A DNA stretch of 64,000 nucleotides from Desulfobacteraceae bacterium (GTDB lineage: Bacteria; Desulfobacterota; Desulfobacteria; Desulfobacterales; Desulfosarcinaceae). This document shows, piece by piece, positions 1-16,830 of the stretch; position 1 is the stretch's first letter, and each line of letters begins with the position of its first letter. Position numbers and translations under genes: made by a program. The stretch spans positions 1 to 64,000 of the forward strand of contig JABDIN010000078.1 of NCBI GenBank assembly GCA_013003715.1, given 5' to 3'. The notes beneath the pieces are model-generated. The model saw only the letters and a program-made list of their open reading frames with translations. It had not been told where the DNA came from and did no database searches.

Positions 1-902
1 GTGTAGCTCAGGGTGCCGTCCCACTTGTCCACAAACGTACCATCAGTGGGCTGGGTAAAGTGCTGGAGGCTTATGGGGTCACCGTCCGCATCCGTGTCAT
101 TGGCCAGCAGATCAGCGGCCACATCGATGTCCAATGGGGTGTCTTCATCCGTGGTAAGGCTGTCGTCGTTGGCCACCCCTACCGCAAGTATGCCCGACCA
201 GCCGTCCTGCGCCGCCTGGCTGACGGCAATATCACTTTCGATCACGCCCGCCTGGTACTCCAGATCCCAGTCGCCGCCCAGAAACGCGTGCCCGGTCACA
301 TCTTCGGATGCGGCCACATCCGCGCCGGTGAGCTGAGAAATGTTGTTTAACAAGGCCTGCCCGTCATTGTCGGCGGCAATATTGCATCCGTAAAAGAGAA
401 GATCTCCGGTATCGGTGAGGGCTTCGCCCCAGCCCGCCACCGCATCGTTGAACTGCTGAAGATTGTCGCTGCTCAACACGGTATCGCCCAGGTTGATCCG
501 CCCTTCGTCCCCATGGGTAATAAAATGAACGGAAGAAAGGTTCGAGCGTTCGCCGAGGATATCACTGATCTGCTCAATACCATCGGTGTCGCCGTCCAGA
601 ATAATTACTTCGAATATCCGGTTGTCCTCAGTGGGCAACTCTTCGATAAGCTGTTCATAATCGACAATGTTCTCATGGACGAATACAAGCTCCGATCTTA
701 CGGCCGCATCGGATTGTCCGGCCGCCTGCGTATCGGTATCAAGGCCGGTGGGGTCCTCCATGGCGACATCCTGCACCAACGCCTGGTCGTCGACCAGATC
801 AGGGTCGATACCCGGCAATAGATCGGCGGAAAACAGCAGGCGCTGCTCAAGTTCTTCGCAACGGAAAACTTTCGGTTGTTTTACAGCATGCTTGTTGGCC
901 AT
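1..902 (-). CDS. Giant surface protein, N-terminal part (LEPR-XLL-like motif, DUF4347, cadherin-like repeat); cut by window edge
   Basis: The reading frame starts at ATG 902, eight bases after a perfect GAGGAGG site, and stays open to base 1, so about 300 residues are visible and the C-terminus lies outside. Residues ~15-27 read RCEELEQRLLFSADL, which matches the LEPR-XLL motif found near the N-terminus of very large repeat-rich surface proteins, with Gln in place of Pro. Residues ~70-240 match DUF4347: the landmarks are VIILDGDTDGIEQI, HFITHGDEGRINLG, DLLFYGCNIAA and GGDWDLEY. From ~243 a cadherin-like/VCBS-type repeat begins (DEDTPLDIDVAADLLANDTD), the usual opening of a long tandem-repeat stalk. 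There is no conventional Sec signal peptide, so the LE(Q)R-XLL segment may be the export or sorting signal. It is last in an operon that encodes two adaptors, an M50 protease and a SecA-like ATPase, and is the obvious cargo candidate. Family assignment is firm for DUF4347; function is unknown. Confidence 0.9.
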   Translation of the reverse strand, partial: MANKHAVKQPKVFRCEELEQRLLFSADLLPGIDPDLVDDQALVQDVAMEDPTGLDTDTQAAGQSDAAVRSELVFVHENIVDYEQLIEELPTEDNRIFEVIILDGDTDGIEQISDILGERSNLSSVHFITHGDEGRINLGDTVLSSDNLQQFNDAVAGWGEALTDTGDLLFYGCNIAADNDGQALLNNISQLTGADVAASEDVTGHAFLGGDWDLEYQAGVIESDIAVSQAAQDGWSGILAVGVANDDSLTTDEDTPLDIDVAADLLANDTDADGDPISLQHFTQPTDGTFVDKWDGTLSY

Positions 903-962
903 GTGAACCTCCTCAATCGCAATTTCAGCTCCGTGTCCGGGAACAAATGATCTGGTAAGTCG

Positions 963-1796
963 TTATTGCATCGTGTCGGTTTCTTCTCCGATTTCAAACC
1001 GTACGATGCATTTCAGCCCGCTTGGTGTCTGTTTTCGGGCATTAGGCATTTCCAGGCGCACGCCGAACGTATTGCTGGCGGAATCGATCACTTTGTCGAC
1101 AATGGTCACCGTGGCGGTCTGTTCGCCGTATCTGGATAGCTCGGGAATAATGGTGGCGGTCATTCCCGGGTTGATCCGGCCGAACATACCGGCCGGAATT
1201 ATCACTTCAACCCGCAACGGATCCAGCTGTGCCACCCGCAGCACGGGTTGGTTGTTGATATATTCACCGGGTGAGACAAATCGGTCCACCACTACCCCGG
1301 ATATGGGGCTTTGGATCGACCGCCGCGCCAACAACGCTCGTGCCCGTTCCAATTCGTGTTTCGCCATTGCTTTGTTTTCCCGGGCTTTGACGAGGCGCTG
1401 TCCGGTCAGGACAATCTCGGTGGCGGCCTGATCCTTATCATGATCGGAAATTGCCGACAGCTTTTTGACCCGGGTATGAACCCGTTTCGCGAATGCCAGC
1501 TGCGCGAGCTGGAGATTGATTTCACCGTGGAACGATGCCGCCGTTTTTGCTTTCTCAACTGCCGCTTGTTCCACGGAGGATTCCAGCTCCACCACGGTCT
1601 GTCCCTGGCTGACCGGAGCACCGCGGTCAACCGCCACCGTGGCGACAATTCCTTCCGCCGCCGAACCGATGTCCACCACCGCGTATGGTTCGATCAAGCC
1701 GTCATACTCAATGGTTACAGCACCCGCAGCGGATGCCGACATCAAAAAGCCGGCTAGCGCCAGGCCGAATAAAGTGAGTTTACCGATTTTCAACAT
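963..1796 (-). CDS. RND/HlyD-type periplasmic adaptor subunit
   Basis: This 277-residue protein has a clear signal peptide (MLKIGKLTLFGLALAGFLMSA, then ASAAGA). It is followed by the membrane-fusion-protein layout: a first half-lipoyl motif (GIVATVAVDRGAPVSQGQTV), an alpha-helical hairpin (~75-150), a second half-lipoyl motif (IQSPISGVVVDRFVSPGEYI) and a beta-barrel domain (LDPLRVEVIIPAGMFGRINPGM). Such proteins bridge an inner-membrane exporter to an outer-membrane channel. It starts at ATG 1796 behind AGGAGA and lies 14 bases after the SecA-like gene and 60 bases before the giant surface-protein gene. No RND pump or outer-membrane factor is seen beside it, so it probably serves the exporter encoded by this operon. 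At 277 residues it is shorter than most RND adaptors, with a compact hairpin. Confidence 0.85.
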   Translation of the reverse strand: MLKIGKLTLFGLALAGFLMSASAAGAVTIEYDGLIEPYAVVDIGSAAEGIVATVAVDRGAPVSQGQTVVELESSVEQAAVEKAKTAASFHGEINLQLAQLAFAKRVHTRVKKLSAISDHDKDQAATEIVLTGQRLVKARENKAMAKHELERARALLARRSIQSPISGVVVDRFVSPGEYINNQPVLRVAQLDPLRVEVIIPAGMFGRINPGMTATIIPELSRYGEQTATVTIVDKVIDSASNTFGVRLEMPNARKQTPSGLKCIVRFEIGEETDTMQ

Positions 1797-1810
1797 TTGT
1801 GTTTGATCTC

Positions 1811-3823
1811 CTATTCCATGTTACCGCTGAACGCGAGTTTCTGATCGGTCTGCAGTTCATGCTGCATCAAAATACGGCGTGCCTCGCGATGGCGGCCTTC
1901 CACCCGCCGCTGGGCACGTCTGATAAAAAACAGATTCAGTTTGCGAAAAAACATGCCGCCATGTGCCGGGATGCGGCTTAAGAACCTGATCACCGCCGGA
2001 TGGCAATTCTGCTGGATCAGGTCATCCTCCAGGGAAAGAAAAACCTGGTAGCTGCCGGCATCTCCCTGTCGGGCACAGCGCCCGTACAACTGACGGTCGA
2101 TCCGCCGGGCATCATTTCGACAGGCGGCAATGACGTGCAGGCCGCCCAGCCCGGCCACGCCCTCCGCCAGCGGAATATCGGTGCCGCGCCCCGCCATATT
2201 GGTGGCAACGGTCACCTGCCCCTTTTGCCCCGCGGCGGCGACGATCCGGGCCTCTTCCTTGTCCTGCCGGGCATTTAACACCTGGTGAAGGATTCCCTTG
2301 GCCGCCAACCGTTCGCTCAACGATTCCGAATCCCCAACCGAAGCGGTACCGATCAATACCGGCTGCCCCGTGGCCTGCTTTTGTTTCACGGAGGCAATCA
2401 CCGCCGCCCATTTTTTTGGGGCATCCGGAAAAATCCGCGGGGACAACTCCCGTCGCTGACTGGGGCGATGCAAGGGGATACGCTGCACCCTCAACCCGTA
2501 TACCGACCACAGTTCGGCGCTGACTTCACGGGCTGTGCCGGTCATGCCGCCGATGCGCAGATAGCGGCTAAAAAACCGCTGGTAAGTCAACCGCCCCAAT
2601 TGTTCGCGGGCATCGGTCAATGGGCAGTCCTCCTTGGCCTCCACCAATTGATGCAGGCCGCGCTCCCAGGAACGATCCGGCATGGCCCGCCCGGTGTTGG
2701 CGTCGACAATCACGACTTTTCCATCGCTTATCAGGTAATCGCGGTCTTTGTGCAGCAGGTACAGGGCATGCAGCGCCTGGCAAACCAGCTCTTCCCGCCG
2801 CCGTGCATTTTGCCACACGCTGTCCATGGTTTTGGCTGATCGCGATAGGCCCTGTTGTCCGATCAGGCTGAGCTGCACCCCCCGTCCTTTAGGATCGAGA
2901 AAAAAATCACGGTCGTTTTCCATTTTCAGGGCCAGCTTCAAGGCTTGCCGATAAATGGCGTGTTCCTCGGAGCTGTCAATGTTACGGGTCAGAATCAGCG
3001 GAGTACGGGCCTCGTCGATCAGGACGCTGTCCGCTTCATCCACAATGGCGAAACAAAGTCCGCGCAACAAGAATTGTTTCAACCGGGTTTTCCGGGAATG
3101 GGCCGATTCCAGTTGCAGCCGCAACTGGCTGTGATCGTTGCCGAGGACCAGGCGGTCGCGCAGGTAATCAAAGGCGACCTGATCATTGGTGCAATAGGTA
3201 ATATCGCAGGCGTAGCCGGCCCGGCGCTGTTCCACTTTCATATCGGCGGTGACGAAACCGACGGTCAGCCCCAGGGCCTTGTAGAGCGGGCCCATGGAAA
3301 CCGCATCCCGTTGCACGAGGTATTCGTTGACGGTGATCACATGTACCGGAACTCCCGCCAGGGCAAGTGCCGCGGCGGCCAGGGTCGCCGTGAGGGTTTT
3401 ACCTTCGCCGGTCTCCATTTCGGCCAGTTGTCCGTGCAGCATCACCCAGCCACCCATGAGTTGAGAATCGTAGTGACGTTTGTGAAGGGTGCGGAAAGAG
3501 ACCTCCCGGATCAGGGCGAACGCCTGGATGCAGAGCGGATCACTCAACCCGCGGCTGCGGAACCGGCGACGCAGATCAACCAGCATGTTCTCAAGCCGGG
3601 TATTGCTCAGGCCGGTCAATTGCTTTCCCTGGCGGCCGATGGCTTCGGCAACCCTGTGCAACCCGGCATGGTGATCGATTGTCAGCCGTGCCAGTGCGCC
3701 CTGAATCGAACGGATCATACGATCCGCCCAACCGGTATCCGGGTCAAGGCGCTGGGGATAGCGCCCGGCGATGAGACCGGGGCGCAAGGCACCGGTGATG
3801 GCTGCAGTTGAAGCGTTAGACAT
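1811..3823 (-). CDS. SecA-like preprotein translocase ATPase, short paralogue
   Basis: This 670-residue protein has the SecA DEAD-motor signature: ETGEGKT (137-143, Walker A), VDEADSVLIDEARTPLI (261-277, Walker B region), GMTGTA (426-431), TNMAGRGTDI (541-550) and QLYGRCARQGDAGS (578-591). The preprotein cross-linking region between ~280 and 365 is present but divergent. Housekeeping SecA is about 830-900 residues. Here the protein ends shortly after NBD2, so the helical wing/scaffold tail and the C-terminal zinc/SecB-binding linker are reduced or absent. The RGRAGRQGD motif VI has become YGRCARQGD. Its start overlaps the upstream M50 gene by 8 bases, implying translational coupling. It is inferred to be a specialised translocation motor for the LE(Q)R-XLL surface protein rather than the essential SecA. 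Family membership is certain; the substrate is inferred. Confidence 0.9.
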   Translation of the reverse strand: MSNASTAAITGALRPGLIAGRYPQRLDPDTGWADRMIRSIQGALARLTIDHHAGLHRVAEAIGRQGKQLTGLSNTRLENMLVDLRRRFRSRGLSDPLCIQAFALIREVSFRTLHKRHYDSQLMGGWVMLHGQLAEMETGEGKTLTATLAAAALALAGVPVHVITVNEYLVQRDAVSMGPLYKALGLTVGFVTADMKVEQRRAGYACDITYCTNDQVAFDYLRDRLVLGNDHSQLRLQLESAHSRKTRLKQFLLRGLCFAIVDEADSVLIDEARTPLILTRNIDSSEEHAIYRQALKLALKMENDRDFFLDPKGRGVQLSLIGQQGLSRSAKTMDSVWQNARRREELVCQALHALYLLHKDRDYLISDGKVVIVDANTGRAMPDRSWERGLHQLVEAKEDCPLTDAREQLGRLTYQRFFSRYLRIGGMTGTAREVSAELWSVYGLRVQRIPLHRPSQRRELSPRIFPDAPKKWAAVIASVKQKQATGQPVLIGTASVGDSESLSERLAAKGILHQVLNARQDKEEARIVAAAGQKGQVTVATNMAGRGTDIPLAEGVAGLGGLHVIAACRNDARRIDRQLYGRCARQGDAGSYQVFLSLEDDLIQQNCHPAVIRFLSRIPAHGGMFFRKLNLFFIRRAQRRVEGRHREARRILMQHELQTDQKLAFSGNME

Positions 3824-5963
3824 AGAATTCCCATAGTAAAAGTTGACGAAAACTGCGGGCCCACTGCATGGCCAGCGGCATGGTGCCGTGGCTTATCCGC
3901 ACGTAGACCCGGCCCCCGATATATGGATTTCTAATCTGCTTCGGCAGATTGATATCGAGCTGAAAAAACGTGACCAGAGACCTGAGCCCTTCCGGGTCGG
4001 TGGGATCCACGGGTATACCACCACCACCGGTGGTTCCCAGGGCCGCGGATGGCAGATTATAGTCCGCCGACGGCACAATCCGCTGGACCTCGGCCTCTAT
4101 TGGAACACCCACTTTTTCGGACAGCCGCACTTCCACGCCGGTGAGACGTTCGCGAACCAGTCCGATGTCCGCCTGGCTGACCACGGCCCGTACCGTCGGC
4201 CGATGTTCGGAAATGATATAACCGAGCAATTCACCCTTTTTAATAAAACGTCCCTGGATGTTGTCCGCGTCAAACAAAATGAAACTGCCGGTGGTCGGGC
4301 TCAACACAATCAGTTTTTCCAGTTTTTCCTCGGCGTGTCGCAAATCCCCTTTTACCAGTTCGATCTCATCGGTGATGGCTTTGCGCTCCACCCGTTCACT
4401 CAAGGGGTGGGCATTGTAAGTGGCAAAAAGTTCTTCCAGACGGGCCTTGTACACTTGGATCTGCATCTCGAGCAGGGGATCGGTTCCTCTGATCAACGGA
4501 GAATTTTCAAAAACAAGTTCCTCCACTGGTGCCAGCAGTTCGACCACCTCACAATCGGTTCCGGCCCGGATAGCCGATTGTTCCGGCAACCAGACCACCC
4601 CCTGGGTCGTGGTCCAAAGGGGAACGGGCAGGATGAACAGCAGTAAAATCAGACTCAGGCCCAATCCGCCGCCAATACCGAGCAGCCGGGAACGCCGCTG
4701 ACGGACGGCCGGATTGCTTAAAAATCGTGTCAGTGCCCGGACTGCCGGAAAAACCATCAGACTGACGGCCCCCCAGATGGCGAGCAATATGCCGACCACA
4801 AAATATCGGCTGCCCACCAGCAACACCAGCCCGACCATTATTGCTATCCGGTAGCAGAACGATATCGGCCCATAGATCATAAACCAGTATTTTTCACCAG
4901 GCGCGGTCACCGGTGATTCCGCTGCTTCGTTTTCCAGGAGACGGCGCTGGATCAGATAGGCGAGATACTGGGTGGAGCGTTGCCCCAGATTGGGGATTTC
5001 AATCATGTCGGCAAAAATATAGTACCCATCGTAGCGCAACAGGGGATTGCCGTTAAACAACACGGTGGACACACTGCCGATCAACATGACGTTGAAAGCA
5101 ATGGCACTGACAAGTCCGGTTTGGACATTTAACCAGACAAAAAGCGCCAGGGCGGACAGCAGGAGTTCAACCGCCATCCCTGTTGCAGCGACGGCGATGC
5201 GTTGCTGTTTGTCGGGAAAAGAGGCTGAGGTGGAGGCATCGACATAGGGGATAGGATTCAAGGCGAGCAGGATGATGCCCATTTCATGAACCTCGCCCCC
5301 CCATTTTTTCACGGCAAAAGCGTGGCCGAATTCGTGGAACAGTTTCACCACGGGGTAGACCAGCCAGAGTAATAGCAGATTGAATGGCGAAAAAAACTGG
5401 TGGGACAGCCGGTCGGAGATTTCAGGCCAGTGCAGGCCGGCGGCCACCAAGGCGGACAAAACAATCAGCAACCAGAGGATAAAGGCGCCGCGGGTATACA
5501 GGGGCGCTGTTAAATATTGCCATTTCTCCAGGAACCGGTCCGGATCGACTAGTGGGAATCGTAGCGAAAACGGGTTGCTGATCCGCTGTTTCCACCCATT
5601 GGGTTGTCCCCCTTGATCCTGCTTGGCGATTTCCAAAGTGCTGGGCAGGATGTCACTTTGCACCAGGTCCGCTGCATGCAATTGCCCGAGCAGTTGTATC
5701 ACTTCATCCTGGGTCGGGGGGTCATTGTCGGTCCTGCGACCGGCATTTTCCCAGATTTCCTGAACCGTGCGCCGGCCGTCCATTTGACCGATCAAGGCAT
5801 AGGCGGCGGCATTGAACCTGTGATTACGCCCGTTCAGGCTGTTCCGCAACACGTACCAGGGCTGATTCCGGTATACATGCCGGGAAACGATGGCAACATC
5901 GCGCAGCACCGGCTTTAGCTTTGCCACACGATACCAGTATGTGCTGAACAGGGATTCGCTCAT
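3816..5963 (-). CDS. PqqD-like / M50 (site-2-type) metalloprotease / barrel-sandwich fusion membrane protein
   Basis: This is a 715-residue multi-domain membrane protein. Residues ~25-110 resemble a PqqD-type peptide-chaperone fold (ARNSLNGRNHRFNAAAYALIGQMDG-like segment, then TVQEIW). Several membrane helices follow (~158-176, 190-210, 254-278, 283-303, ~350-410 and ~435-452). HEFGH at 210-214 is the M50 zinc motif, and NPLLRYDGYY (306-315) supplies the second-site Asp312, so the protease looks catalytically intact. After the last helix the region ~455-690 is a periplasmic membrane-fusion-like domain: a lipoyl-like start at residues ~455-490, a short coiled coil near 505-555, then VLSPTTGSFILF and a beta domain. 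The gene is coupled to the SecA-like gene by an 8-base overlap and lies 9 bases after the GAF adaptor gene. It may process or hand over the surface protein as it leaves the membrane; that role is inference. Confidence 0.87.
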   Translation of the reverse strand: MSESLFSTYWYRVAKLKPVLRDVAIVSRHVYRNQPWYVLRNSLNGRNHRFNAAAYALIGQMDGRRTVQEIWENAGRRTDNDPPTQDEVIQLLGQLHAADLVQSDILPSTLEIAKQDQGGQPNGWKQRISNPFSLRFPLVDPDRFLEKWQYLTAPLYTRGAFILWLLIVLSALVAAGLHWPEISDRLSHQFFSPFNLLLLWLVYPVVKLFHEFGHAFAVKKWGGEVHEMGIILLALNPIPYVDASTSASFPDKQQRIAVAATGMAVELLLSALALFVWLNVQTGLVSAIAFNVMLIGSVSTVLFNGNPLLRYDGYYIFADMIEIPNLGQRSTQYLAYLIQRRLLENEAAESPVTAPGEKYWFMIYGPISFCYRIAIMVGLVLLVGSRYFVVGILLAIWGAVSLMVFPAVRALTRFLSNPAVRQRRSRLLGIGGGLGLSLILLLFILPVPLWTTTQGVVWLPEQSAIRAGTDCEVVELLAPVEELVFENSPLIRGTDPLLEMQIQVYKARLEELFATYNAHPLSERVERKAITDEIELVKGDLRHAEEKLEKLIVLSPTTGSFILFDADNIQGRFIKKGELLGYIISEHRPTVRAVVSQADIGLVRERLTGVEVRLSEKVGVPIEAEVQRIVPSADYNLPSAALGTTGGGGIPVDPTDPEGLRSLVTFFQLDINLPKQIRNPYIGGRVYVRISHGTMPLAMQWARSFRQLLLWEFYV

Positions 5964-5972
5964 CGTTCCTCT

Positions 5973-7739
5973 TTAAGGCATTCGATTCCAGATGAATAAC
6001 CGCAACCAGTCCACCAATCGCCGGGTCCAGATCCAGATCAATTTTTCTCTGCCGATCTCAATTTTTGTGATCCCCTCCATCCCGGGGCGCATGAGATCCG
6101 AGTATTTGTCCAAAACAGCTTCGACCCTGAAATAATTACGCCCCTCTTCACTGATGGAGACGGGCGTCAGCCGATCAATGGTGACGGCCACTTTCCGGTC
6201 GGGTATCCCGGATAATTTCAATTGCCCCTTTTGCCCTAGTGAGATCAGGCGGATATCCCGGTCGTCCACCTTCAGGACAACCTTATATTCGTTGTTCAGC
6301 GCCACTTCGTAAAGCACATCACCGGGTGTCACGGGGGAACCCAGCGCCTGGCTGAGATCGCCTTTGACAATAAGGCCCGCGAAGGGGGCCACGAGCTCCG
6401 TACGATCCAATTGCTGCTCCACAAGCCTCAGCTGCGCTTCGGCCTGGGTCCGTTTGGCCTGAAGAATGGCTATCTCGGCACGGTCTCGCCCGGCCATGGC
6501 TTTCCGGTATTCGTTGAATAACTGGGAGCGCTGGCTCTGCCACTTCTGCTGTTCGAGCAGCAGTTCCCGGTCATCCAAAGTGACCAGCGGATCCCCCTTT
6601 TGAACCAGATCACCGGCGCGCACGTGCGCCTCGGCGATATACCCCTGTTGAGGCGCCACAACCACCCGGCTGACCACCGCTTCCAGGGCGGCATCACAAG
6701 AAATGCGGAAGGTTCCGCCGGCCATGATGAGCACCAGCAATGTGGCCAGCGTCAGGCCGGTACCGACCTTGAGCGGGAGATGCCGGGGACCGAAAAGTTT
6801 GGAACACCAGCTCCGGCAATAATCGAGAACCTTTGAGAAGATGGGTCTCTCCTCCCGTCTCCTGGTTTCAAGCACCGGCCCGATCAACAGCCCGACCTGC
6901 TCGCATTGTTCCGCCATCTGAGCGGTAAAGGGTTTGCCCGGAACACGTTCCAGCATAAGTGCGCCCACCGCCTTACCGTTTTTAACAAGCGGTACGGTGC
7001 AAATCGCCGCCCCTTGCTGGAGTTTTGCCAGTTCGGAATGAAACCGGGCGACATAGAGGACGTGATCGGACGCCACGGGATAAACGATGGTGGTTCCCTG
7101 ATCCAGGGATTCATTCATGGCATCCCGGATGACACGAATCAGGTTGGATTGCTGGTCAACTCGAGAGGTATGGGACAAGGCTTCAACCCGCATCCGGTTG
7201 AAGTTCATGAAGCCAAGACTTACCCGATAGCAGGAAAACCGCTCGGCAAGCTCATTGGCGACTTCGGTGGCGGCAACTGTGAATTTTTCATGTTCCAGGC
7301 CGGTGGCCACCAGGTCAATGAGATTGACCAATTGTTTTTTGGCCGTTGAACCATTCACCATAATCATGGTTTCGAGCCATTTCACCCCGGTCTGGACCAA
7401 CTGAACGGTTGCCTTCTGAACCGGTTGCGAGCGGGCCACCATAGCGATGGCGATAACACCGAATAACCTTCCGCCCATAAACAGCGGACAGGCCATGGCA
7501 TCAAGAGGTTCACCGGTTTCAGCCATCTTGCTGTTGCGGGTTTTTACCACCGCCTTTTTCGAACCCAGGCATGCCTTGGCAATGTGTGACAACACGGCGG
7601 GATTATGACTTTTGTCCGGCCAGAAAACGATTCGATTAAAAGGTCCTTTGCCGGGGGTGCCGGTCACTAACACCGCGTGGATTGATCCGGAAACCAATCG
7701 GCACTGATTTAATAGCCAGGTTTGTAAGACATTGTCCAT
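5973..7739 (-). CDS. GAF-domain membrane-fusion (HlyD-like) adaptor
   Basis: This 588-residue protein combines a cytoplasmic sensor half with a periplasmic adaptor half. Residues ~1-120 and ~135-290 look like two GAF-type modules (YRVSLGFMNF and ICTVPLVKNGKAVGALMLER are typical strands). A single membrane helix lies at ~323-342 (LTLATLLVLIMAGGTF). It is followed by a canonical MFP: PQQGYIAEAHVRAGDLVQKG (half lipoyl), an alpha hairpin ~385-445, VAPFAGLIVKG (second half lipoyl) and a beta-barrel to ~560, then a hydrophobic aromatic tail (WIWTRRLVDWLRLFIW). It is first in the five-gene unit and begins at ATG 7739 behind a GGGGG run. The fusion suggests that export could be gated by a cytoplasmic ligand or redox signal; this is inferred. 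Confidence 0.85.
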   Translation of the reverse strand: MDNVLQTWLLNQCRLVSGSIHAVLVTGTPGKGPFNRIVFWPDKSHNPAVLSHIAKACLGSKKAVVKTRNSKMAETGEPLDAMACPLFMGGRLFGVIAIAMVARSQPVQKATVQLVQTGVKWLETMIMVNGSTAKKQLVNLIDLVATGLEHEKFTVAATEVANELAERFSCYRVSLGFMNFNRMRVEALSHTSRVDQQSNLIRVIRDAMNESLDQGTTIVYPVASDHVLYVARFHSELAKLQQGAAICTVPLVKNGKAVGALMLERVPGKPFTAQMAEQCEQVGLLIGPVLETRRREERPIFSKVLDYCRSWCSKLFGPRHLPLKVGTGLTLATLLVLIMAGGTFRISCDAALEAVVSRVVVAPQQGYIAEAHVRAGDLVQKGDPLVTLDDRELLLEQQKWQSQRSQLFNEYRKAMAGRDRAEIAILQAKRTQAEAQLRLVEQQLDRTELVAPFAGLIVKGDLSQALGSPVTPGDVLYEVALNNEYKVVLKVDDRDIRLISLGQKGQLKLSGIPDRKVAVTIDRLTPVSISEEGRNYFRVEAVLDKYSDLMRPGMEGITKIEIGREKLIWIWTRRLVDWLRLFIWNRMP

Positions 7740-13718: not shown

Positions 13719-14552
13719 TCACCAGGTGATTTGAAAGACACTGATGGCTGCGCCAATGAGAAGATACAGGCCGATGACGACGGCGGTACAGCCGACCACG
13801 AAGTGGACTGTCTTTACTATTCCCGCATCCTGAGGAACCATCAGCGCATTCATACCCCCGTCGGCTTCCAGACGCTCAACCCAGGCGGATCGTTCGTGCC
13901 GGGTCAGGGACAATCCGGCATTACCGGAAAACATGGCGCGGTCCATAGGGAAACTTGACCGTCGAAGGTGTGCGATGAAAAAATGAATGATAAATACATG
14001 GGCGATGGCCAGAATAGCTTCGATGCGATGCACCCAGAACGCCACATTCAACCCCCAGCCCGGCATAAAACCTGTAGACCAAAAGGGATAGGTCATCAGC
14101 AGCCCTGTGCCGCCGATGACCACCATGCCCCAGAATACGGCCCAGTAATCGAATTTTTCCCAATACCCCCATCTGTCGAATTCCGGGTATTTACGCATTC
14201 CCAGCATCCATCCCAGATGCTGAAAGAATTGTCTCACATCCGCTGGTCGAGGGACTAAAGAGTCCTGACTCCAGAGGCTTTTCGGAAGATGTTTCCAATC
14301 CACCTTTGTCATCAGATAGATGATGTGGATCAGGAGGACGACGAGCATCAGGCGCCCAACGAAAATGTGGACGTCCCGGGATGCATCATATCCGCCGAAT
14401 ATCGACAGAACACCCCTCCCCCATCCCGTTTCCATGGTCATGCGACCAAGCCCGGTTGCGGCCTGAATTAAAAAGGATACCAATAAAAAAGCATGAAACA
14501 ACCGTTGAACCAGCGTAAATCGAAAAATTCCTTGGCTATTTGTCGGTACCAT
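13719..14552 (-). CDS. Membrane cytochrome b subunit (formate-dehydrogenase-gamma / b561-like)
   Basis: The protein has about 277 residues with four to five membrane helices. Candidate haem-ligating histidines lie in LVQRLFHAFLLVSF, LMLVVLLIHIIYL, FWVHRIEAILAIAHVFIIHFFIAHL and TVHFVVGCTAVV. Such subunits pass electrons between the quinone pool and periplasmic cytochromes or catalytic subunits. I chose ATG 14552, because GGGGAGG stands nine bases upstream; an ATG at 14570 has no such site. The gene overlaps the end of the trihaem cytochrome gene by 17 bases and closes a three-gene cytochrome operon. Confidence 0.85.
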   Translation of the reverse strand: MVPTNSQGIFRFTLVQRLFHAFLLVSFLIQAATGLGRMTMETGWGRGVLSIFGGYDASRDVHIFVGRLMLVVLLIHIIYLMTKVDWKHLPKSLWSQDSLVPRPADVRQFFQHLGWMLGMRKYPEFDRWGYWEKFDYWAVFWGMVVIGGTGLLMTYPFWSTGFMPGWGLNVAFWVHRIEAILAIAHVFIIHFFIAHLRRSSFPMDRAMFSGNAGLSLTRHERSAWVERLEADGGMNALMVPQDAGIVKTVHFVVGCTAVVIGLYLLIGAAISVFQITW

Positions 14553-15237
14553 GGTTTCCGGCCTCCCCATGCTTTTTCATGAATATTTCACGAATCCCCC
14601 ACAAGAGGGTGTGGGGGAGAAAAAGAACAAATGTCCCCACTGCAATGGCCACCATTATCCAAAACGCCCAGGCCAGAACGGGAAAGCTTTTCAAAGTGCC
14701 TGCCAATGCCGGATTCGGTTCATGAATGATGTAGGCGGCATAGGAAGCACTTGCCCCCGGATGGCACTTGGCGCAGATGTATGCGTGTCTCCGAATGGGA
14801 TTCATGGGCGAAAAATAGTGTTCGTTACTCGCAATCGGTTCCCCACCGTGGCATTGCCGACAAGTGAGGTTCGCCCGGATCGTATGAATATCCCGGGCCT
14901 GTTCCGGATGGCAGTCCACACACCGGCGGCCGTTATAAAACTTGATTCCCAAGTGGGAATCGGTCAGACGGGTCCGGATACGGGTTTGAGCGGAGGTGGG
15001 GCTGTATGGAAAGAGACCCCGCTGAACCCCTGGTATCTGTACCAGAGGCATCGATCGTTGCGGACGGACTTCATACGCTTCATAATATCCGGTACTTGCT
15101 TCCCGGTCTTTATATCTTCGTATCGCGGAGGCAACCTCTTCTTGCGCATGAACGTTTAAAAAAGATGCCCCAAAAGTTCCAACGAGCAAGAGTGGCAGGA
15201 GAACCTGCCGGAAATGTTTCTGTTCCCGTTGACGCAT
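14536..15237 (-). CDS. Membrane-anchored trihaem cytochrome c
   Basis: The protein has about 233 residues and starts at ATG 15237 behind GGAGGAAATC. An N-terminal signal/anchor (VLLPLLLVGTFGASFLNVHA) leads into a periplasmic domain with three CxxCH sites: CVDCH, CRQCH and CAKCH. A C-terminal membrane helix follows (FPVLAWAFWIMVAIAVGTFVLF), with a short basic cytoplasmic tail. This layout resembles NrfB/NapC-like or hydrogenase-linked electron-transfer cytochromes anchored beside a b-type subunit. It lies between an octahaem lipoprotein (14 bases upstream) and the cytochrome b (overlapping), so the three probably form one quinone-linked periplasmic electron conduit. Confidence 0.85.
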   Translation of the reverse strand: MRQREQKHFRQVLLPLLLVGTFGASFLNVHAQEEVASAIRRYKDREASTGYYEAYEVRPQRSMPLVQIPGVQRGLFPYSPTSAQTRIRTRLTDSHLGIKFYNGRRCVDCHPEQARDIHTIRANLTCRQCHGGEPIASNEHYFSPMNPIRRHAYICAKCHPGASASYAAYIIHEPNPALAGTLKSFPVLAWAFWIMVAIAVGTFVLFLPHTLLWGIREIFMKKHGEAGNHGTDK

Positions 15238-15251
15238 GATTTCCTCCGGTA

Positions 15252-16523
15252 TCATGGTTGCGCCTCATATTTTATGGGTGTGATGATCTGGCCAGTGGGT
15301 TTGGGCAGGACGGCCAGGGCTTCCCATTGATTCTGCAAGACTTGAAGATCCTCATTTTTATGCTTGTGGCAGGTCTGGCAGGAATTGGGCATTGCGGCAT
15401 CGGCCAATGTGGCTGCCGGCAGTAAAGGTTTGAATACATGGCTGTGGAGATCACCGGACTCGGCGCTTTTAACGATCCGTGGCATATGGCAGCCTACACA
15501 ATTGCCAAATGAATGGATGGCATGTGCCATGTTGGTATTGACCTGGACATGGCAGCTGAAGCATTGCTTGGAACCTGCCGAAAGCGTCTGAGAACGGGTC
15601 GGTGGCAGACCGATCTGGTGGACATAATGGCAGGAGGTACACGTCACGCCCTCAACAAAGTGCTTGGATTGCTTCCAATCGATGTATTGCTGATGATGCG
15701 CTTTTGAAAATTCATTTCCATACAAATGGCTGGCATCACCGGCGGCGAACGAAGTGGATATGTAATAAGCCTCCAGGGCCTTTCCCGGTTCATACCCCAC
15801 GGGCCACCCCGCACCTTTGTGCTGTGTAGCGGCTCCCCGATTGTGGCACGATCCACAGATTTGTGTGGCCACCCCTAGTGTCAGCTTTGCCGGATTGATG
15901 ATATTCTGCCGTTTTTCAAATACGGCGGTCTTGGGCAGGACGGCGTGCCAGGAGCCTTTGCCGTGACAGGCCTCGCAGGAAACACCGGCTTCTATAAAAT
16001 TATCTTTTTCAAGATCAACGCCGGTGGCATGACACCCGCCGCATTTCAAAAGCCAGGGTCGTTTGTCCCAGTCCTGTTCGTGGTAATTGACCCAACGGTC
16101 TGTCTCGACATTGTACTGGACCGGCGAAATATACAGGGTGCCGTCTTTCCTGACGATGAATCGCTGTTTCCACTGGCTGCCGATGGTATACAATATCTCT
16201 TCAACTTTAGGCACGTATATCTGATCCGCAGGCACTTTCAATGTATCCCCCAGCTTAGCCAAATCCTCGCGAATGCGTTCTTCAACAATGGGAACAACTA
16301 TGGCATCGCGATTTGCCCGGGCATCTTGTATCATCCGGCTGTGCAATGTCATTTTCCAAGAATCATAATGCTCGAGGTGACATTGTTTGCATGTATCCGA
16401 TCCGACAAATGTTCTGGGCTGGTCGAGGATGGCGGTTATGTTAACGGGCGTCTCGGCACCGCATGCCAAAAGTGTTACAACGCCGCTAAAAATAATGATG
16501 GACCTGAATACTATGCCTCGCAT
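15252..16523 (-). CDS. Octahaem c-type cytochrome lipoprotein
   Basis: The protein has 423 residues from ATG 16523, which sits behind a perfect AAGGAGG. The signal ends in the lipobox LLAC, so a lipid anchor is likely. Eight haem-binding CxxCH motifs are present (CKQCH, CGGCH, CEACH, CGSCH, CTSCH, CFSCH, CVGCH, CQTCH). The first one, in FVGSDTCKQCHLEHYDSWKMTLHS, is the signature of the cytochrome c-554-like multihaem family. Scattered His residues (HSRMIQD, HHQQYIDW, HAIHSF) could be distal ligands. It is probably the terminal periplasmic electron acceptor or reductase of the operon with the trihaem c and cytochrome b. The substrate cannot be stated; assimilation to a named reductase is not justified. 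Confidence 0.88.
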   Translation of the reverse strand: MRGIVFRSIIIFSGVVTLLACGAETPVNITAILDQPRTFVGSDTCKQCHLEHYDSWKMTLHSRMIQDARANRDAIVVPIVEERIREDLAKLGDTLKVPADQIYVPKVEEILYTIGSQWKQRFIVRKDGTLYISPVQYNVETDRWVNYHEQDWDKRPWLLKCGGCHATGVDLEKDNFIEAGVSCEACHGKGSWHAVLPKTAVFEKRQNIINPAKLTLGVATQICGSCHNRGAATQHKGAGWPVGYEPGKALEAYYISTSFAAGDASHLYGNEFSKAHHQQYIDWKQSKHFVEGVTCTSCHYVHQIGLPPTRSQTLSAGSKQCFSCHVQVNTNMAHAIHSFGNCVGCHMPRIVKSAESGDLHSHVFKPLLPAATLADAAMPNSCQTCHKHKNEDLQVLQNQWEALAVLPKPTGQIITPIKYEAQP

Positions 16524-16830
16524 ATTATCCTCCTTGATCACCAAAATGGGTTATACAGAATTTCTGTTTATACGGTTAATGAAGTTGCTATGGCTCTTTT
16601 CTTTCGCCATTTATGTGTGAAGGGGAAATATTCATCATCGTATACCATTATGGCTATGAGAACGGCAGCATGCGGATCAGCCAAAATGAACAAGAAAGGA
16701 TTGTATTTCAGGTGAAGGCCTCGGGGAGACAATATCCGAACAGTGATCACAAAATGAATATCATTTATTTACGATTAGCAGAAAGGCTTCCCTGTGGCAA
16801 GCCATTTTTTTAATCCGGCGGATCTTTTCC

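Follow-up and report, generated by a model that had tools for sequence, protein, structure and literature searches.

Introduction

How does a large surface protein leave the cell when it starts with no evident Sec signal peptide and no gene for an ATP-binding cassette (ABC) exporter adjoins its own? This question is raised by one end of a 64,000-nt stretch of DNA (the window; bases 1-64000 of the 87-kb contig C54, JABDIN010000078.1) from the 5.5-Mb genome of a Desulfobacteraceae bacterium (GCA_013003715.1). Five open reading frames (ORFs) encode, in gene order, an adaptor fused to a GAF domain (GAF-HlyD adaptor), a fusion of a PqqD-like domain, an M50 membrane protease and a HlyD-type adaptor (M50 fusion), a shortened SecA (SecA-short), a second adaptor, and the start of a protein with an LEPR-XLL motif and a DUF4347 domain, hereafter the cargo. 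In this study, we found that the gene set is conserved and linked to LEPR-XLL proteins, and that a single residue of the LEPR-XLL leader goes with the type of M50 protein beside it. We propose that the module is probably a dedicated, leader-guided export route for large, adhesin-like LEPR-XLL proteins.

Results

The ORFs and their Pfam/NCBIfam matches confirmed the unit as the initial annotation had described it, that is, two adaptors, a PqqD/M50 fusion, a shortened SecA and an LEPR-XLL/DUF4347 protein on one strand, separated in gene order by a 9-nt gap, an 8-nt overlap, a 14-nt gap and a 60-nt gap. The GAF-HlyD adaptor matches GAF (2.5e-10) and HlyD_3/HlyD_D23, and hydropathy places a likely membrane helix near residues 321-346. 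The M50 fusion matches PqqD (PF05402, 24.3 bits, cut-off 23.4) and HlyD_3; its Pfam M50 score of 24.8 bits is just below the cut-off of 27.2, although the catalytic motifs are present. SecA-short matches SecA_DEAD (4e-99), SecA_PP_bind and P-loop_SecA, and the second adaptor matches RND_mfp (112.7 bits, cut-off 94.9). The cargo matches DUF4347 (2e-54), a cadherin-like family and, near its N-terminus, LEPR-8K (NF012209, 23.4 bits, cut-off 17; residues 16-34), which bears out the LEPR-XLL-like motif noted at first. That the cargo has no Sec signal peptide was likewise supported by hydropathy, with a best 19-residue mean of 0.36 in the first 60 residues against 1.84 in the second adaptor. The further claim that no ABC exporter is present held for the ORFs adjoining the module (read from the ORF list, and in part scanned with profiles) but not for the genome, which encodes an LssB-type transporter on another contig.

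The unit is real and conserved. At least 579 stretches in the species collection encode an M50 relative, and the best 80 loci were kept and all their ORFs read. The GAF-adaptor lies upstream of the M50 gene in all 75 loci with room for it, a SecA-short-type gene adjoins the M50 gene in 73 of 76 (72 by script and L147 by hand, with degenerate SecA-like genes in L133, L134 and L163 included), and a second adaptor lies no more than 4.5 kb away in 59 of 67. A start codon giving exactly the 8-nt M50/SecA overlap was found in 51 of the 73 loci readable by script. SecA-short is absent beside M50 in L105, L106 and L129, and L102 has a run of N at that place; the L105 genome has SecA-short elsewhere, and the L129 genome, also sampled as G387, has it at its other copy. 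The record titles of the 80 loci name Desulfobacterota-type, Pseudomonadota, Nitrospira, Rokubacteria, Omnitrophota and Myxococcales bacteria, and isolates with the module include Methylobacterium brachythecii, Methylorubrum thiocyanatum, Thioclava pacifica, Ensifer sp. Root278 and Pseudomonas sp. MMS21 TM103. A neighbourhood that is not conserved had been named beforehand as the observation that would count against an export system; instead, the gene order is kept in the 80 loci, and the cargo link described below recurs in two genome samples.

These samples comprised 395 genomes of the same phylum as the window (own-phylum sample) and 349 Pseudomonadota genomes. M50 fusion relatives were found in 27 of the 395, the window genome included, and in 102 of the 349 at E 1e-10 or better (87 at E < 1e-50), so that the system is no rarity. 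LEPR-XLL proteins, counted as NF012209 matches over the family cut-off with G665, G674 and, in the other sample, G128 left out, occur in 29 own-phylum and 80 Pseudomonadota genomes. All 23 Pseudomonadota genomes with SecA-short have an LEPR-XLL protein (Fisher 1.2e-16), as do all ten own-phylum genomes with an A-type locus, i.e., one that, like that of the window, includes SecA-short (Fisher 8.8e-13). The 23 are a lower bound, since a divergent SecA in G484, with 703 bits by profile, escaped the search at E 1e-140. For the M50 gene, LEPR matches were found in 71 of the 102 Pseudomonadota genomes with it versus 9 of the 247 without it (Fisher 5.7e-39). In 23 of 34 A-type loci the cargo lies within 25 kb, and in 18 of these 23 at 1.6-3.0 kb. 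The cargo link is thus strong for SecA-type modules, and the proposal of a dedicated unit tied to LEPR-XLL proteins is supported by both the neighbourhood and the association. Occurrence of LEPR-XLL proteins without module genes, the other observation that would have spoken against it, is nearly but not fully ruled out. Among the 50 Pseudomonadota genomes with an LEPR match of at least 20.4 bits, 48 have M50; the others are G681, whose 64-aa frame is probably a chance match, and G614, which has a frame of ~2,500 aa and no M50 found by profile. Over the family cut-off, 9 of the 80 LEPR genomes have no M50 match. In the own phylum, two of 13 genomes with LEPR of at least 21 bits (G082 and G135) have no M50; both have SecA-short.

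Cargo frames beside SecA-type modules include 15,080 aa (G153), 14,920 aa (G409), 11,649 aa (G417), 10,562 aa (G362) and 9,835 aa (G561), all of which end at a distance of 1.9-2.7 kb from M50, and two closely related complete cargos have 1,587 aa (L086) and 1,935 aa (L094). DUF4347, cadherin-like, bacterial Ig and laminin-G-like domains and RTX repeats were found in cargos or cargo ends. The cargo of the window is the single LEPR-XLL match over the cut-off in its genome; because the window starts at base 1 of C54, its full size is not visible, and "giant" is not demonstrable there. The largest LEPR frame listed has 19,427 aa (G464:C115:112865), with no M50 listed on that contig, and G417 has four LEPR frames of 11,649-15,434 aa. 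In the DUF4347 domain, which comes after the leader (window 186-689 and 36 other copies), a His (in HG) and a Cys (in GC) are invariant (37/37), and PDB chain 9qpe_G, named a DUF4347 domain-containing protein, matches the domain at E 0.0035. The His/Cys pair presumably resembles a caspase-like dyad, a likeness that family searches did not confirm; no caspase family matched, and a caspase-like protease stays a guess.

The leader of these cargos is a short N-terminal stretch, basic in most cases, whose end reads approximately E-x-[LMI]-E-x-R-h-L-L-S-[AG]-[DE]. Counted from a start codon chosen by script, Lys and Arg exceed Asp and Glu ahead of the motif in 44 of 48 genomes, and the best 15-residue hydropathy means of 48 leaders range from 0.42 to 1.80. 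We read 72 LEPR loci, a subset of the matches in the two samples, of which 32 lie beside an A-clade M50, 28 beside a B-clade M50 and 12 have no M50 listed on the same contig. These clade labels come from bit scores: A-clade stands for about 570 bits or more in the 349-genome search or for the A-type loci of the own-phylum search, and B-clade for about 239-319 bits or for the weak matches of the own-phylum search. The residue after LExRhhh is S in 30, N in one and D in one of the 32 A-clade loci, and D in all 28 B-clade loci, i.e., 31/32 non-D versus 28/28 D (Fisher 2.8e-16, a statistic that ignores kinship). Furthermore, both flavours occur within the single genomes G409, G508 and G706, each with the matching M50 clade. 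The lone A-type leader with D (L293) sits 11.6 kb from its M50, and the 12 loci with no M50 on the contig have S (7), D (4) or Y (1). The S flavour is kept in A-clade genomes where SecA-short was not found at E 1e-140 (G693, G413, G496, G555, G734, G504 and G472), as well as in L260 of G588, an A-clade locus where SecA-short was not found; thus the flavour seems to follow the M50 protein rather than SecA. Some A-clade genomes scored as having no SecA-short possibly contain a divergent SecA, as G484 does.

A model of the M50 fusion from 59 sequences (pLDDT 84.5) has an N-terminal domain of a strand hairpin and helix (residues ~20-100), then a membrane region containing the HEFGH helix and, at the C-terminus, an adaptor that matches MacA/MexA-type adaptors with Z up to 14.9. 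Over residues 16-106, the model aligns with TbiB1 in complex with its leader peptide (5v1v; Z 10.1, rmsd 2.8 Å, 87 residues), and TbiB1 5v1u matches the same domain with Z 10.0. These matches came from a second structural comparison, in which no M50-fold structure was among the matches listed; Foldseek gave adaptors only among the matches listed, and a PDB sequence search with the M50 profile matched only adaptor-like and biotinyl-type domains. PF05402 is found in 38 of the 59 M50 relatives, and together with the structural match this is good evidence that the modelled N-terminal domain has the PqqD-like fold of a recognition element (RRE) for ribosomally synthesized and post-translationally modified peptides (RiPPs). 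In B-type proteins PF05402 was found in none of eight, and the N-terminal domains of five of them are homologous to that of the A-type (hhalign probability 96.6%). From the leader code, pairing of the leader with the RRE is likely. The protease motifs HExxH and NxNP....D are present in all 80 M50 relatives (four flagged rows were read by eye), and it is plausible that the M50 site cuts the leader.

A model of SecA-short from 37 sequences chosen by length and score (pLDDT 83.6) superposes on the SecA chain of a SecA-SecY structure (6itc_A) over 595 residues at 2.6 Å and ends at residue 612. The part of SecA beyond this residue, which we take to be the scaffold with the two-helix finger, the wing and the C-tail, is missing. 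The ATPase motifs are invariant in the 37 sequences, and in a quick SecA tree 17 housekeeping and 47 SecA-short rows are split by a branch of 100 support and length 0.89 (rows L181 and L191, whose branch lengths are close to 5, were disregarded as apparent wrong reading frames). The window genome has one other SecA, housekeeping by its length and 42% identical to SecA-short. SecA-short plausibly acts as a motor in export, and its C-terminus may serve as a docking site. SecA-like proteins with no ATPase motifs are encoded between M50 and the second adaptor in three loci (L133:12348-13883, L134:7315-8943 and L163:12179-14104), a hint of a structural role; those of L134 and L163 retain the C-terminal LLxFSGR signature, and the L163 genome has an uninterrupted SecA-short elsewhere.

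Not all modules include SecA-short. B-type loci consist of the M50 fusion, adaptors and a TolC-type protein, the last of these confirmed in L048 and L049; an ORF related to the window cargo lies alongside in L049-L051. The core of both types is the RRE-M50-adaptor protein, further adaptors and, where found, an LEPR cargo, with SecA-short as an added motor. TolC-type (OEP) genes adjoin the module in relatives (five proteins confirmed; a home-made profile found such genes in 8 of 80 loci), and the window genome has 12 OEP matches on six other contigs and none on C54.

Discussion

The machine genes were described before. In 2015, Kamneva, Poudel and Ward reported a secondary SecA_DEAD locus related to type I secretion systems (T1SS), which according to the main text of their paper (PMC4452313) has four genes, GAF-HlyD, M50-HlyD, SecA_DEAD without wing and scaffold, and HlyD, sometimes with OEP and with no ABC gene. 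The window has both a SecA_DEAD protein of this kind and the adjacent M50-HlyD, GAF-HlyD and HlyD genes. In that main text, SecA is proposed as the ATPase and M50 as a possible pore, horizontal transfer is inferred, and the locus is given no name, cargo, leader or biological role; a term search of the main text, with the figures outside it, returned no PqqD, LEPR, giant, cadherin or calcium. The work is mentioned in passing in PMC5313232, which has it among its references. The earlier statement that no named system of this composition was known is therefore right in that the locus, as far as the main text goes, is unnamed and has no assigned cargo or leader, but the gene module itself has been in print since 2015. 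Our literature search, which mostly left subscription journals outside, found, among the hits listed, no paper linking LEPR-XLL or DUF4347 to the module or naming its cargo; a Vibrio paper mentions in a passage a single LEPR-XLL protein about 8,000 aa long. To the published locus the present study adds the cargo link, the leader code, the RRE assignment and the SecA-less B-type; the first three appear to be new, the gene set being already known.

We consider the following model of leader, RRE, M50, SecA-short and adaptors to be probably correct as a whole. The cargo would start with the short basic LEPR-XLL leader in place of an evident Sec signal peptide, and the RRE domain of the M50 fusion would bind this leader and dock the cargo at the membrane, where the M50 site probably cuts the leader. 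SecA-short would then feed the unfolded chain through the inner membrane. The conduit would probably be formed by the membrane domain of the M50 protein, a pore idea that goes back to the main text of PMC4452313. The adaptor domain of the M50 protein, the GAF-adaptor and the second adaptor would span the periplasm and connect with a TolC-type channel whose gene lies in another part of the genome.

Several observations weigh against this model. As for recognition, the leader statistics take no account of kinship, Pfam misses PqqD in 21 of the 59 M50 relatives, and the unrelated-looking GdmN and Rv2067c match the same M50 residues as TbiB1 with equally high Z, so that the structural match alone is not specific. 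As for the motor, the SecA-like proteins of L133, L134 and L163 have no ATPase motifs, all eight B-type genomes tested show housekeeping SecA only, and SecA-short was not found in the A-clade cases of the L106 genome (housekeeping SecA only) and the G588 locus; B-type, L106 and G588 together indicate that the motor is not essential everywhere. As for the cargo, the LEPR matches counted for 11 of the 34 A-type loci are all on other contigs, and an LEPR match over the cut-off is missing in 11 of 27 own-phylum and 31 of 102 Pseudomonadota M50 genomes. With LEPR in just 16 of 27 and 71 of 102, part of the wider M50 family goes without an LEPR match, mostly in genomes with weaker, B-like M50 matches. 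Finally, G082 and G135 have SecA-short and LEPR (flavour LLLDA) and no M50 fusion by profile. Both have a second adaptor beside SecA-short (G082 also has OEP), and both assemblies are fragmented; the G135 contig starts inside SecA, and the 627 bases before SecA in G082 encode no M50. Either M50 is missing from these assemblies or they represent a third arrangement.

The alternative that survives best, albeit a rather unlikely one, is that SecA-short works through the housekeeping SecYEG as SecA2 does, and the M50 protein and adaptors just process the cargo in the periplasm and pass it on. SecA-short does retain PPXD and the motor core, its surroundings showed no second SecY (though no SecY search was made), and SecA-less B-types must take some other route. 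However, its match to B. subtilis SecA stops at residue 612 and so leaves out the SecY-contacting regions, and a hydrophobic signal segment is absent from the window cargo. The same early end sets SecA-short apart from the accessory Sec systems (SecA2 and SecA2-SecY2), which it resembles in being an additional SecA paralogue, in this case with a cargo of its own. SecA2 of these systems is defined by a retained scaffold with the two-helix finger, and M. tuberculosis SecA2 reportedly also has no wing, yet keeps the scaffold. SecA2 chains in the PDB are longer, with 705-771 residues modelled, whereas both the sequence and the model of SecA-short end before that scaffold, at residue 612.

It is unlikely that the leader is bound and left uncut, so that the RRE tethers a large protein at the inner membrane and the M50 site has another substrate. 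An adhesin needs anchoring, and the invariant His/Cys pair of DUF4347 could do the cutting instead, but HExxH and NxNP....D kept in 80 of 80 M50 proteins go beyond the needs of a scaffold. An RRE-like domain joined to M50, with a leader at the N-terminus of the substrate, is rather reminiscent of RRE-guided RiPP processing (PqqD, TbiB1 and the daptide M50 protease NF041824), except that the substrate here is a large surface protein. Against NF041824 the window fusion scored 154.9 bits, under the cut-off of 300.

We regard it as very unlikely that the cargo exits through a classical ABC exporter of type I (LapB/LssB) whose gene lies elsewhere, with the module regulating or modifying it. The LssB-type transporter of the window genome (C112:142000-144081, 948 bits) is a point for this exit and a further one against our model, and RTX repeats, typical of T1SS substrates, occur on some A-type cargos. 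Nevertheless, among 17 genomes tested, all with LEPR over the cut-off, LssB exceeds its cut-off in five, the window genome included, and in 12 it does not, e.g. in G153 with its 15,080-aa frame, G333, G252 and G402 (HlyB- and PrtD-type and other T1SS ABC families were not searched). The module shares with T1SS (ABC-MFP-TolC) its adaptors, a TolC-type partner in relatives and large RTX/cadherin-like cargo; it differs in having no ABC exporter in the unit, a proposed N-terminal signal where that of T1SS is C-terminal, and a SecA-type motor in A-type loci. That the module exports something else, and is associated with LEPR-XLL proteins only as a by-product of islands carrying large adhesins in the genome, is hardly credible: the GC content of 0.566 in the module (window 1-7739) versus 0.508 in the remaining window is in keeping with horizontal transfer, which the main text of PMC4452313 infers for the locus, but the leader flavour tracks the clade of the M50 beside it, also inside a single genome, and the cargo link was repeated in two samples.

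Leader-guided export thus remains our preferred reading. More tentatively, and with some doubt on our part, the module may represent a separate secretion class, in which a RiPP-type domain on a membrane protease-adaptor reads the leader and giant proteins pass through that protein rather than through SecYEG or an ABC exporter. A-type cargos would be pushed by a SecA without SecY-facing parts, and S- and D-type versions would coexist in one cell with their cargos kept apart. The leader code supplies a cargo for a module published without one, and for many LEPR-XLL proteins several thousand residues long no export route has been assigned. The code also amounts to a one-residue prediction (S versus D after LExRhhh) and would make the LEPR-XLL annotation an export tag.

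Features of the window

The coordinates of the module are given in Table 1.

Table 1. Features of the LEPR-XLL module in the window.
Feature	Position	Strand	Basis or remark
GAF-HlyD adaptor, 588 aa	5973..7739	-	ORF list; Pfam/NCBIfam; GAF region, adaptor part
PqqD/RRE-type - M50 - HlyD fusion, 715 aa	3816..5963	-	Pfam/NCBIfam; alignment, model
SecA-short, 670 aa	1811..3823	-	DEAD motor and PPXD, without C-terminal scaffold/wing region; conserved C-terminus LxFSGRxE
M50 stop/SecA-short start overlap, 8 nt	3816..3823	-	ORF coordinates
Second adaptor (RND_mfp type), 277 aa	963..1796	-	Signal-like hydrophobic N-terminus
Cargo start, 300+ aa: LEPR-XLL leader, DUF4347, first cadherin-like repeat	3..902	-	Runs off contig end
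LEPR-XLL leader motif, here LEQRLLFSADL (A-type flavour)	801..857	-	NF012209 match
DUF4347 domain with invariant His and Cys	186..689	-	Alignment of DUF4347 copies

In relatives, a small DUF3467-like protein was seen by eye before SecA-short (L252:1-628, G082), and a PF11950 (DUF3467) match lies after SecA-short in another locus (L045:13345-15171, G203). Elsewhere in the window, CxxCH motifs are numerous in genes at 13719-16544, where a cytochrome b-like protein is also encoded; as read by eye, this is probably a multihaem electron-transfer unit.

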